Of a stretch of DNA of 64,000 bases, positions 9,582 through 56,292 are shown in pieces. Origin of the DNA: Bryum argenteum (lineage: Eukaryota; Streptophyta; Bryopsida; Bryales; Bryaceae); the NCBI GenBank assembly GCA_037043015.1, contig CM073331.1, positions 1,385,501 to 1,449,500 on the forward strand, in the 5' to 3' direction. The position numbers and the translations under genes were made by a program. The number at the start of each line of letters is the position of its first letter. The first letter of the stretch is position 1. The notes below the pieces were generated by a model that was given only the letters and a program-made list of their open reading frames with translations, made no database searches and was not told the DNA's origin.

Positions 9582-10245
9582 TTAACCCCTAATGTCGAAA
9601 AGAGTCCAAAAGGGTCGTGTCTGGTTTGGTCAACCCCTCAATTACTGTATTTAGCTTGTATGAAATTTAAACATGTTGCACGTTCGTTCTGGAGTTTTTG
9701 AATACCTTTACGGAAAGTCATTTTAAGCTTAAAAATTCCTCATACTTTCGAAGATATTCGTGGTCAAAGTTTGACAACATTATTTGAAAACTACCCAAAA
9801 CTGCCCAAAACTGCCCAAACTACAGTATATGCTCGTTTATTCTCAAAATCTGCCCAAAATAAATAAGATTGTAGGAACTTCAAATATTCACCACAAATTG
9901 AGATTTTGCTTTTTATCAAGTTTTGTTACTTTTTCTTGAAAATAAGGTTTCAAGGCATGATCTCACATTTTGGATCTTTCATTCGATTATTCTTCACATG
10001 CCATTTTTATCATCAAAGAAGGACCTTTGAAGTTGAATTTCAGCATACCTCCAATGAAAATTTAAGCATTTCTACAGGATTTGAAACTAAGTTGTGGTAC
10101 ACACATACATGGACAAGTTAGGTATAAGATCTTATACTTACAAAGTTGAAATTACGTTCAAAGTTGAAAATTTTCATCTTGCATTGAAAAAGGGTGGTTT
10201 TGAAGAGTTGTGGTAGTTTTGGGGGCTTTTGACTTTAGGGGTTAC
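9582..10245. mobile_element. TTAA-flanked non-autonomous element, long subfamily (about 660 bp)
   Basis: It starts TTAACCCCTAATGTCG and ends GACTTTAGGGGTTAC, so the right target site has one change (TTAC). The interior has three direct CTGCCCAAA units near 9800 and an AT-rich body, and no coding frame. A degenerate same-orientation copy lies at about 1365-2180. It shares termini with the shorter families in this window. Confidence 0.65.
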
Positions 10246-11189: not shown

Positions 11190-11559
11190 TTAACCCTTAA
11201 ACGCCCTTGGGCTCTGAAATGGGCAGCCCAAAATTGGATCACAGCATCTTTTGGACTTGGGCATCATGAATAGTGCACTTTTTGAACTTGGGCATCATGA
11301 ATGAACCAATCAATGATGAGCTTGCAACCTCCTACAAAGTTATGTACCACCCCAACCTACCTACCACAATCCTTTCAAAGTACAAAATCACTCATACAAT
11401 TTGTGATTTGAATTGTATAATTTCACATTTTGAATGCATCACAAGAAGGTGACCAGTTTGACATCAAAATTTAAGTGAAAAATTGAGTACAGTGAGAGCT
11501 ACCAAGGAGATTCCGTTGGAATCAAGCCCCTCGGGCTTGCTCGGGCGTTTAAGGGTTAA
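11190..11559. mobile_element. TTAA-flanked element, family B (370 bp)
   Basis: Termini are TTAACCCTTAAACGCCC and GGGCGTTTAAGGGTTAA, a near-perfect inverted repeat, with TTAA at both outer ends. It lies within the TTTATGGCCTA-GAAACATTG block of the duplicated unit. Other copies are at 45793-46145 (full) and 25431-25730 (truncated). Confidence 0.88.
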
Positions 11560-20401: not shown

Positions 20402-21403
20402 CTATTTTTCATGTGTAGATTTAACTTGTACCCGTAAGGTTGTCAAGTCTTCTCTTTTGGGTTTACTATATTTTAATTCTAAGAGAATCGCGGCCGCGTA
20501 GATGACGTCAAGATCTTCTTCTTCCATGGTAGTTTCATCATCACTTTCTGAGCCTTTCGTTGTTTTTCTTCTTTTCCTTCTTTTTCTATCTTTCTTTGTT
20601 TTAGCTTCATCAACACTTTCTAAGAATTTCGTGTTTTTTCTCCTTTTTCTATTTTTTTGGCTTTTGGCTTCATCATTTACTTCCATCTTCACATCTTCGT
20701 GAGATTGTTCACCATCTTCTTCTCTAATATTTCCATCTCCAATATCATTCATGGCTTCATCGTCTTCTTCAATTTTGGCTTCATGTTGTGTTCGTGATCT
20801 CTTTTTGTTCTTCGCTTCCACAATATCTTCCTTCTTCACGGTCTCAAGTTCATTGTATTCAAAGTGTAGAGGTTCTCCATTCACGTACGACCAATGGCAC
20901 TCCAAAGAGCAAAATTCGGCTTGATTGTGAATACTTGTTTTCAGTGACGATCTACAAACTAGACATACATGATCCTTGGTACATTCTTTCTGTGGTTCCC
21001 CTTCCAGATCCGGGCGTCTTCTCGCTCGAAGTATGCAACAAGAGTCTCCGTTGAAAGCAAAGGTTTGAATGCGACTTGTGTCGTATCCAAAAGGCGCCAA
21101 ATCTTTAACGTCAATTGCATCTCGGTGAGTCACCTTTCGCACTTGTAAGAACGGATGCCCTTCATGTTCACAATCGCGACTAAAACCTCTTTTCTTGCAT
21201 AAACTCCCAACTTTGCACTTGATGCAAAACAACTTGGTACATGGCTTTACATTTGGATTTTCAATTTGACATGGACACTTTACATTAGTTGCCTTTCTTG
21301 CTCTGGCATAATCCGTTGGCTCTTCCGTGTACGGAAAATATCTACTTGTGAAAAATTCTTTCATCCATGTTTCTGCACGATAATCTATGTCCATTTTGAA
21401 CAT
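20402..21403 (-). CDS. PLATZ-family zinc-binding protein, intronless
   Basis: One 333-aa frame starting MFKMDIDYRAETW. Residues about 13-175 match the PLATZ domain: WMKEFFTSRYFPY, FCIKCK with paired cysteines, HEGHPFLQVRKVTHRDAI, RIQTFAFNG, CLVCRSSL and FCSLECHWSY. PLATZ proteins bind two zinc ions and A/T-rich DNA and repress transcription in plants. The remaining half is a charged tail with repeated basic clusters (KNRKRRKNTK, KKDRKRRKRRKTTK) between acidic stretches (EEDDEAMNDIGDG, EEEDLD). PLATZ genes are usually split by introns and shorter, about 200-260 aa, so this uninterrupted, tailed copy could be a retrocopy that stayed open. It sits alone in repeat DNA. The domain call is firm; its activity is unknown. 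Confidence 0.85.
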   Translation of the reverse strand: MFKMDIDYRAETWMKEFFTSRYFPYTEEPTDYARARKATNVKCPCQIENPNVKPCTKLFCIKCKVGSLCKKRGFSRDCEHEGHPFLQVRKVTHRDAIDVKDLAPFGYDTSRIQTFAFNGDSCCILRARRRPDLEGEPQKECTKDHVCLVCRSSLKTSIHNQAEFCSLECHWSYVNGEPLHFEYNELETVKKEDIVEAKNKKRSRTQHEAKIEEDDEAMNDIGDGNIREEDGEQSHEDVKMEVNDEAKSQKNRKRRKNTKFLESVDEAKTKKDRKRRKRRKTTKGSESDDETTMEEEDLDVIYAAAILLELKYSKPKREDLTTLRVQVKSTHEK

Positions 21404-21949: not shown

Positions 21950-22218
21950 TTAACCCCTAAAGGTCCAAGAAAGCGGAAATCGCTTTTTGGAATTTCCGCA
22001 GGGAGAAAATTCAACCAACTTTGACCATTATAATCTCCAAATTGGAGAAAAATTAACGGTTCAAACTTGACATTCGAGAAAAGGGTCAAGTTAACTTCAA
22101 GATCCTATGGTTGGATCTTCTAATCAATGCTTAGATTGAGTTTCTTTGCACCTGAAGTAGAAGAAGGTTCTTTATGATAAATTTAAACAATTTTAAATCA
22201 AGGACCTTTAGGGGTTAA
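21950..22218 (+). mobile_element. TTAA-flanked element, family A1 (269 bp)
   Basis: Ends are TTAACCCCTAAAGGTCC and GGACCTTTAGGGGTTAA, perfect inverted repeats with TTAA outermost. The interior has GACCATTATAATCTC and the palindrome-like AAGATCCTATGGTTGGATCTT. No coding capacity. Confidence 0.88.
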
Positions 22219-24063: not shown

Positions 24064-24595
24064 TTAACCCCTAACTCTCATTAAAACCCGAAACGGGTTT
24101 TGGAGGTTCCCGCAAGAAAAAAACTCAACCAACTTTGACCATTATAATCTCACAAATGAGGAAGAATGAACGGTTCAAATTTGGTACGTGAGAAGAATGT
24201 CAATTGAAATATGAGATCTTACGGTTGATTCTTTTAAATAATGCTTGGATTGAGATTTTTTGAGCTTAACCCCTAAAGATCCAAGAAAGCCGAAATGGCT
24301 TTTTGGGGTTTCCGCAGGAAAAAAAGTCAGTCAACTTTGACCATTATAATCTCAAAATCGGAAAAAAATTAACGGTTCAAATTTGACATATGAGTATAGG
24401 GTCAAGTTCACTTCAAGATCCTACGGTTGGATCTTCTAATTAATGCTTAGATTGAGTTTTTTCGGGCCTGAAGTAGAAGAGGGTCCTTTGTGATAATTTA
24501 GACAATTTTGTATCAAGGATCTTTAGGGGTTAATCTAAAGAAAGTTCAAATTTTGTGACTTAGACCATTTTGCAACAAGGAGAGTTAGGGGTTAA
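24064..24595 (+). mobile_element. TTAA-flanked element, family A2, split by a nested A1 copy
   Basis: Outer ends are TTAACCCCTAACTCTC and AGAGTTAGGGGTTAA. The element matches the uninterrupted A2 copy at 51094-51362 on both sides of the insertion at 24266-24533. Removing the insert plus one TTAA restores the other copy's order (GAGCTTAATCTAAAG). Confidence 0.92.
24266..24533 (+). mobile_element. Complete family A1 element nested in A2
   Basis: It starts TTAACCCCTAAAGATCC and ends GGATCTTTAGGGGTTAA. Both TTAA copies flank the insert, where the related element has one. The interior has AAGATCCTACGGTTGGATCT and matches the element at 41281-41548 in reverse. Confidence 0.93.
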
Positions 24596-41280: not shown

Positions 41281-41548
41281 TTAACCCCTAAAGGCCCTTG
41301 ATACAAAATTGTCTAAATTATCACAAAGGACCCTCTTCTACTTCAGGCCCAAAAAAACTCAATCTAAGCATTCATTAGAAGATCCAACCGTAGGATCTTG
41401 AAGTGAACTTGACCCTATACTCATATGTCAAATTTGAGCCGTTAATTTTTTTCCAATTTTGAGATTATAAAGGTCAAAGTTAGCTGACTTTTTTTCCTGC
41501 GGAAACCCCAAAAAGCCATTTCGGCTTTCTTGGGCCTTTAGGGGTTAA
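41281..41548 (-). mobile_element. TTAA-flanked element, family A1, reverse orientation
   Basis: Ends are TTAACCCCTAAAGGCCC and GGGCCTTTAGGGGTTAA with TTAA outermost. The interior is the reverse complement of the nested copy at 24266-24533, with GATCCAACCGTAGGATCTTG in the middle. Confidence 0.92.
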
Positions 41549-51093: not shown

Positions 51094-51362
51094 TTAACCC
51101 CTAACTTTTCTTAAAACCCAAAATGGGTTGCGGAGGTTCCCACATGAGAAAAACTAAGCCAACTTTGACTATTATAATCTCACAAATGAGGAAGAATGAA
51201 CGGTTCAAATTTGATATGCGAGAAGAATGTCAAGTGAACTTTGAGATCTTATGGTTGAATCTTTTAAATAATTCTTAGATTGAGATTTTTTTTAGCTTAA
51301 TCTAAAGGAAGGTCAAATTTTGTGACTTAGACCGTTTTGCAACAAGGAAATTTAGGGGTTAA
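51094..51362 (+). mobile_element. TTAA-flanked element, family A2, uninterrupted
   Basis: Ends TTAACCCCTAACTTTTC and AAATTTAGGGGTTAA. At 51297-51300 a single TTAA sits in GCTTAATCTAAAGG, exactly where the copy at 24064-24595 carries a nested A1 element. This is the empty site. Confidence 0.93.
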
Positions 51363-53873: not shown

Positions 53874-54122
53874 TTAACCCCTAAAGGTTCTTGATGCAAA
53901 ATTGTAAAAATGGACATTTCCTTACTTCAGGCCTAAAACCTCTCAATCTAAGAATTATTTGGAAGATCTAACCGTAGGATCTTGAAGTTAACTTAACCTT
54001 CCAGTGACTTGCCAAAATTGAACCGTTGATTCTTCTTCATTTGTGAGATTATAATGGTCAAAGTTGGCTGAATTTTGGACTCCAAAAAGCAGTTTTCGCT
54101 TTCCTGGACCTTTGGGGGTTAA
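53874..54122 (-). mobile_element. TTAA-flanked element, family A3, reverse orientation
   Basis: Ends TTAACCCCTAAAGGTTC and GGACCTTTGGGGGTTAA. Its reverse complement matches 56043-56292 almost throughout, including GATCTAACCGTAGGATCTTG. Confidence 0.9.
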
Positions 54123-56042: not shown

Positions 56043-56292
56043 TTAACCCCTAAAGGTCCAAGAAAGCAAAAACTGCTTTTTGGAGTCCAAAATTCAGCCA
56101 ACTTTGACCATTATAATCTCACAAATGAAGAAGAATCAACGGTTCAATTTTGGCAAGTGAGTGGAAGGTTAAGTTAACTTCAAGATCCTACGGTTGGATC
56201 TTCCAAATAATTCTTAGATTGAGAGTTTTTAGGCCTGAAGTAAGGGAATGTCCATTTTTTACAATTTTGCATCAAGAACCTTTAGGGGTTAA
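56043..56292 (+). mobile_element. TTAA-flanked element, family A3
   Basis: Ends TTAACCCCTAAAGGTCC and GAACCTTTAGGGGTTAA. Contains GACCATTATAATCTCAC and AAGATCCTACGGTTGGATCT. Close partner of the copy at 53874. Confidence 0.92.

Follow-up and report, generated by a model that had tools for sequence, protein, structure and literature searches.

Transposons of the piggyBac superfamily are best known from animals and are widely used in the engineering of animal genomes. The catalytic triad of the T. ni piggyBac transposase is D268, D346 and D447 (PMC7351741), and variant target duplications, such as CTAA, GTAA, TCAA and TTAG among others, are known for animal piggyBac elements (PMC10813416). As to plants, a 2008 paper stated that piggyBac was not yet described in them (PMC2528002), a 2015 survey found PiggyBac in all taxonomic groups that it studied (PMC4438587), a fern repeat table contains 1230 PiggyBac matches (PMC6890710), and plants are named among the sources of piggyBac elements in PMC10813416. 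In a literature search that covered mostly papers available without subscription, no work was found that links piggyBac elements of plants to MITEs.

Here we describe a stretch of 64,000 nucleotides from a plant-like genome, referred to as the window, in which one short TTAA-flanked element, termed A1, sits within another, termed A2. Both are almost certainly MITEs that arose by internal deletion of piggyBac elements and that would be mobilised by piggyBac transposases acting in trans from other loci, because long elements with the same ends in this genome encode a piggyBac transposase. The relevant features of the window are the following.

24064 to 24595, plus strand: the nest, in which an A1 MITE splits an A2 MITE (direct reading and alignment)
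24064 to 24067, no strand: left copy of the outer TTAA target duplication of A2 (direct reading)
24068 to 24079, plus strand: left terminal inverted repeat of A2, CCCCTAACTCTC (direct reading)
24266 to 24269, no strand: TTAA copy on the left side of A1 (reading and alignment)
24270 to 24529, plus strand: the A1 MITE proper, 260 bp (comparison with long piggyBac elements)
24270 to 24282, plus strand: left terminal inverted repeat of A1, CCCCTAAAGATCC (direct reading)
24517 to 24529, minus strand: right terminal inverted repeat of A1, GGATCTTTAGGGG (direct reading)
24530 to 24533, no strand: TTAA copy on the right side of A1 (reading and alignment)
24580 to 24591, minus strand: right terminal inverted repeat of A2, GAGAGTTAGGGG (direct reading)
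24592 to 24595, no strand: right copy of the outer TTAA target duplication of A2 (direct reading)
51094 to 51362, plus strand: intact A2 MITE, the unoccupied counterpart of the nest (reading and alignment)
51297 to 51300, no strand: single TTAA of the intact A2 at the site that is occupied in the nest (reading and alignment)
21950 to 22218, plus strand: MITE of the A1 group, 88% identical to A1, flanked by TTAA/TTAA (comparison)
41281 to 41548, minus strand: MITE of the A1 group, 96% identical to A1, TTAA/TTAA (comparison)
53874 to 54122, minus strand: MITE of the A1 group, 75% identical to A1, TTAA/TTAA (comparison)
56043 to 56292, plus strand: MITE of the A1 group, 96% identical to the copy at 53874, TTAA/TTAA (comparison)
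11190 to 11559, plus strand: MITE of a second piggyBac lineage with TTAACCCTTAAACGCCC ends (end comparison)

Direct reading places A1 (24266-24533; 268 bp with both TTAAs and 260 bp without them) within an A2 copy, the nest spanning 24064-24595. The outer A2 has its own TTAA at 24064-24067 and at 24592-24595, and its ends read TTAA-CCCCTAACTCTC...GAGAGTTAGGGG-TTAA. At the occupied site the letters are GAGC-TTAA-CCCCTAAAGATCC...GGATCTTTAGGGG-TTAA-TCTAAAG, and at the matching site of the intact A2 (51094-51362) they are AGC-TTAA-TCTAAAG, with one TTAA. In BLAST the left half of the nested A2 corresponds to positions 1-207 of the intact copy and the right half to positions 204-269, such that the two halves overlap by exactly four bases, the TTAA at A2 positions 204-207 (locus L001). 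This overlap bears out what an earlier note on this DNA had described, namely A1 inside A2, with a single TTAA in the intact copy and a TTAA on both sides of the insert when the site is occupied. The earlier note also held that the nest proves a TTAA duplication, and here the duplication stands and the proof by the nest alone does not. A single nest can be read in three ways: as a duplication of TTAA by an element with symmetric ends, as one of 3 bp by an element whose ends are asymmetric and, because TTAA is palindromic, as one of TA by an element that begins with A and finishes with T. Since the nest is ambiguous among duplications of two, three and four bases, genome-wide sites other than TTAA were needed to decide.

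A second nest (L002, C6:10818316-10818852) consists of an A2 within an A2, again at the TTAA at position 204, and there another A2-like end abuts the nested A2, with one TTAA common to both. Inside the intact A2, TTAA also occurs at positions 18 and 171, and both nests used position 204 despite these.

The genome searched comprises 258.8 Mb in 25 contigs. It contains 2086 exact copies of the 13-base A1 end CCCCTAAAGATCC, of which 1746 (84%) directly follow a TTAA, while the other 340 (16%) have no exact TTAA before them and pool mutated sites with other targets. For a tally of both flanks, 38 loci were taken (the eight best matches plus the first 30 of 293 pattern matches in contig order), and from these were omitted six repeats of a counted insertion (L010, L012, L013, L014, L015 and L017, the last with flanks CTAA/TTAA), two loci with an unreadable far end (L027 and L037), and L002, in which A1 is absent. 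The 29 distinct insertions readable on both sides comprise 23 with TTAA/TTAA (one of them, L030, with a mutated inner end), one with ATAA/ATAA, one with CTAG/CTAG, and four mixed ones in which TTAA is paired with some other tetramer. A tally of copies with their flanks was one of the checks that the earlier note had proposed, and its outcome agrees with the note.

Insertions at other targets were sought with the longer end CCCCTAAAGATCCAAG, which has 70 copies in which the base four positions upstream is not T. Twenty of these were fetched, a sample picked for being unusual, in which five copies repeat the ATAA insertion of locus L009 and four lack a readable far end. Among the 11 that remain, six have the same tetramer left and right (three ATAA, two CTAG and one CTAA) and five do not (ATAA/TTAA, CTAA/TTAA, GTAA/TTAA, GTAA/TTAG and CTGG/CTAG). 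Besides L009, ATAA insertions that lie in other flanking sequence and are readable at the far end occur at L052, L053 (TTAA on the right), L056 and L058, and there is a further ATAA insertion, with an unreadable far end, at L061. Hence duplications other than TTAA, which the earlier note had named as evidence against its reading, do exist in matched form (ATAA, CTAG and CTAA), and this qualifies the note; they are a minority, all keep the length of 4 bp, and the targets of animal piggyBac elements vary too.

Empty counterparts were found for two independent insertions. When the flanks of the ATAA insertion at L009 were joined and used as a query, three uninterrupted copies (L072-L074) were obtained at 98-99% identity, all three reading CTCTA-ATAA-TGAAG with a single ATAA, along with 27 occupied left flanks and diverged relatives at 70-79%. 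The second insertion, at TTAA, lies in a repeat found mostly on contig C1 and is occupied in L011, L013 and L015. Its joined flanks gave 110 candidates, the best 40 of which were scored and all cross the junction (84-92% identity), and four empty copies that were fetched show a single TTAA (three copies) or TTAT (one copy). Among empty paralogues, sites left by excision and sites that were never occupied look alike. The duplication is four bases long, copies the target and prefers TTAA: the empty paralogues of the two insertions, one at TTAA and one at ATAA, carry a single site, and the ATAA empty sites together with the matched CTAG and CTAA pairs rule out duplications of two or three bases with fixed ends. 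The earlier claim that TTAA is duplicated on insertion is thus upheld by the genome-wide count of A1 ends and by empty sites with a single copy.

The same left flank of the ATAA insertion recurs at 27 places (L009 and 26 others), apparently amplified inside a host repeat. ATAA as a common independent target was therefore partly rejected, as the 27 occupied left flanks represent one insertion copied in an amplified repeat. Of the scored unoccupied copies of the repeat with the TTAA insertion, 38 of 40 lie on contig C1, which suggests that this contig is a distinctive chromosome, perhaps heterochromatic or sex-linked.

The transposase was sought through the family DDE_Tnp_1_7 (PF13843), as the earlier note had advised. 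The genome has at least 116 matches above the family cut-off, the best 116 of 775 candidates having been scored, and by hand count 93 of these 116 have no internal stop, a share that applies to these best-scoring matches and not to all 775. The A1 end also opens three elements of 6.5-6.9 kb (L047, L048 and L051) that code for a DDE_Tnp_1_7 transposase. Two of the three (L048 and L051) have matched TTAA flanks, so that the piggyBac-type identity put forward in the earlier note is supported. In L047 (contig C3) the first 46 bases agree with A1 at 44 of 46 positions, counted from the left TTAA of A1, and are followed by an open stretch of 716 codons (P0001), a 3′ region and the end AAATTTAGGGG. 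The 3′ subterminal region is ∼69% identical to nt 54-166 of A1 in the same numbering, and because L047 matches A1 at both parts, A1 resembles a long element that kept a 5′ end and a 3′ portion and lost what lay between. L047 is flanked by TTAA on the left and CTAG on the right, and its tandem duplicates L049 and L050, of which the right end alone was fetched, also have CTAG there. The region C3:9246115-9272902 holds three tandem copies of the L047-type transposase stretch, ∼12-13 kb apart and stop-free in one only. L048 (contig C5; TTAA/TTAA) has a broken transposase frame and, in the longest stretch that aligns, shares 94% identity with L047. Each terminus of L051 (contig C2; 6.46 kb; TTAA/TTAA) carries a 17-bp A1-type end, the TTAA being counted in, and the open frame of L051 stops before the cysteine-rich tail present in P0001. 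Over its final 21 bases A2 agrees perfectly with the end of L048. Among the long elements compared, none fits A1 at both ends and in the interior well enough to be its direct parent; the right end of A1 is closest to that of L051 and the right end of A2 to that of L048.

P0001 matches DDE_Tnp_1_7 with E = 2.6e-78. Its best match in the PDB is piggyBat (E = 8.8e-27), T. ni piggyBac giving E = 8.2e-25, and in an alignment counted by hand its residues D357, D452 and D571 align with D268, D346 and D447 of 6X67. The cysteine-rich C-terminal tail (CVVCKTC...CHKCG...CLNKGCFERWH) aligns to the tail of piggyBat. A search of the same genome with P0001 gave at least 65 matches, 62 of 961 candidates having been scored.

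Eight piggyBac loci were inspected with 1500-base flanks, and the exact A1 end is present in none of the eight; in L047 the A1 end lies more than 1500 bases away from the transposase. Four of the eight show a TTAACCC(C/T)T end, of the CCCTTAAA type in three and CCCCTCAA in one, and since these ends near transposases differ from the A1 end, TTAACCC ends probably belong to more than one piggyBac lineage. The end of the MITE at 11190-11559 resembles the CCCTTAAA-type ends, its first 40-43 nt being 82-88% identical, in alignments of 42-45 bases, to the end beside the transposase loci L039, L040 and L043.

It remains to weigh other superfamilies against piggyBac. If A1 and A2 were Tourist-like MITEs of the PIF/Harbinger type, a 3-bp TTA or TAA duplication would fit the letters of the nest given asymmetric ends, and Harbinger transposases (PF13359) are plentiful in the genome (at least 150, the best 150 of 420 candidates having been scored). 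The earlier note was right that this duplication fits with asymmetric ends, but the nest alone does not exclude it. What does so are the ATAA empty paralogues, which carry one ATAA, and the outer bases at the ATAA, CTAG and CTAA sites also vary jointly on both sides of the element. In addition, the transposases downstream of A1-type ends are piggyBac, and a Harbinger transposase with the same ends, the other finding that the earlier note had set against itself, did not turn up, as none of eight Harbinger loci examined of the 150 scored (1500-bp flanks) carries an A1-type end as its own. L076, the sole one of the eight with an TTAACCCC end, is read as having a neighboring piggyBac MITE because the sequence concerned shares 66-68% identity with the final ∼200 bp of the piggyBac elements. 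With no A1-type end of their own in the eight loci and no 3-bp TWA duplication encountered, a Harbinger origin was rejected and is extremely improbable.

A TA duplication of the Tc1/mariner type, with a fixed T-TA-A preference and element ends A...T, fits all of the TTAA/TTAA copies letter for letter, TTAA being palindromic. However, the element ends would then have to be A...A at ATAA/ATAA and G...C at CTAG/CTAG, meaning that the base tracks the target and not the element; the matched ATAA and CTAG pairs led us to reject it, the ATAA empty sites contradict it, and the transposase is DDE_Tnp_1_7, such that this explanation can hardly be credited. Kolobok and Sola3 are superfamilies said to duplicate TTAA, and TTAA by itself does not single out piggyBac. 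That one of these or another TTAA-duplicating superfamily moves A1 and A2 is nevertheless very unlikely, as the ends and subterminal sequence of the MITEs tie them to elements encoding a piggyBac transposase.

A piggyBac origin is consistent with the following course of events. Internal deletion of a piggyBac transposon would have given rise to A1 and A2, and piggyBac transposases from elsewhere in the genome would, by analogy, mobilise them in trans, presumably by binding their CCCCTAA... ends and cutting them out at the TTAA borders via hairpin chemistry. Reinsertion at a new TTAA would place the four target bases on each side, which for A1 would have happened within an A2 copy, at its TTAA at position 204. 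The sequence itself shows that four bases are duplicated, that empty sites exist, that the ends recur in long elements, to which family the transposase belongs and which catalytic residues it has. The hairpin cut-and-paste route, mobilisation in trans, precise excision and present activity would be expected from established piggyBac biochemistry.

In the manner of a MITE, A1 is 260 bp long with inverted repeats of 13 bp, exists in many similar copies and shares its ends with a transposase-bearing relative. Genome-wide there are 17,696 exact TTAACCCCTAA ends vs. 317 for the pattern read backwards, and a 22-mer pattern has 293 exact copies. Mean pairwise identity is 0.91 among 32 distinct A1 copies, five of them from the unusual-flank sample, and 0.90 among 20 copies from the end-pattern search. 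The nested A1 recurs at 37 other places with 97-100% identity among the 43 matches listed (best candidates scored), and this similarity points to fairly recent movement of its subgroup. By eye, among the first 100 places listed, TTAACCCCTAA ends face each other ∼257, 539, 920-970 and 1300 bases apart, hinting at further non-autonomous families.

Within the window, the end motif with at most one mismatch has 28 matches vs. 1.12 expected. An autonomous copy there was rejected, as none of the 20 ORFs of at least 130 aa is transposase-like by eye and the six of them compared with Pfam matched no transposase family. The window also has a PLATZ gene at 20402-21403, identified with Pfam. PLATZ is known as a plant-specific family, and on this ground the host is called plant-like. 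A 664-bp element at 9582-10245, with ends CCCCTAATGTC and CCCCTAAAGTC, has TTAA on its left and TTAC on its right, and gave no match to 11 piggyBac loci at E 1e-4.

The duplication mechanism is already known, and what is unusual is the abundance of piggyBac in a plant-like host. We propose tentatively, and with some doubt, that piggyBac is a leading cut-and-paste superfamily here, with well over 100 transposase copies of more than one lineage, many of them stop-free, feeding thousands of MITEs, and that a relaxed 4-bp NTAN code (ATAA, CTAG and CTAA besides TTAA) may reflect a changed target pocket. Native piggyBac transposases from a plant-like genome (more than 100 domains, with matching MITEs) are on offer for testing, and the natural ATAA, CTAG and CTAA insertions make piggyBac target choice testable.

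Compared with known systems, A1 and A2 resemble the Tourist MITEs of PIF/Harbinger in being short, present in high copy number and bounded by terminal inverted repeats at an A+T-rich target, but those have a 3-bp TAA/TTA duplication, according to a passage in PMC10004981, and a DDE_Tnp_4 transposase, neither of which applies here. T. ni piggyBac (PDB 6X67/6X68) shares the TTAA target and a DDE_Tnp_1_7 domain with an aligned D-D-D triad, whereas the host here is plant-like and the N-terminal region is seemingly longer, its start codon being putative. The T. ni element starts with CCCTAGAAAGATA, as given by oligonucleotides in PMC7351741, vs. CCCCTAAAGATCC for A1, and the long elements are 6.5-6.9 kb vs. 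the 2472 bp stated in PMC10813416 for a well-defined PB transposon. PiggyBat of Myotis lucifugus (PDB 9C0F) is the best PDB match, with an alignment that reaches the C-terminal cysteine-rich region, although its host is an animal and its sequence is distant. PiggyBac is one of the seven MITE superfamilies of angiosperms in PMC10004981, which in the passage concerned gives the superfamily name only, whereas here the MITEs are linked to transposase-bearing elements in the same genome.
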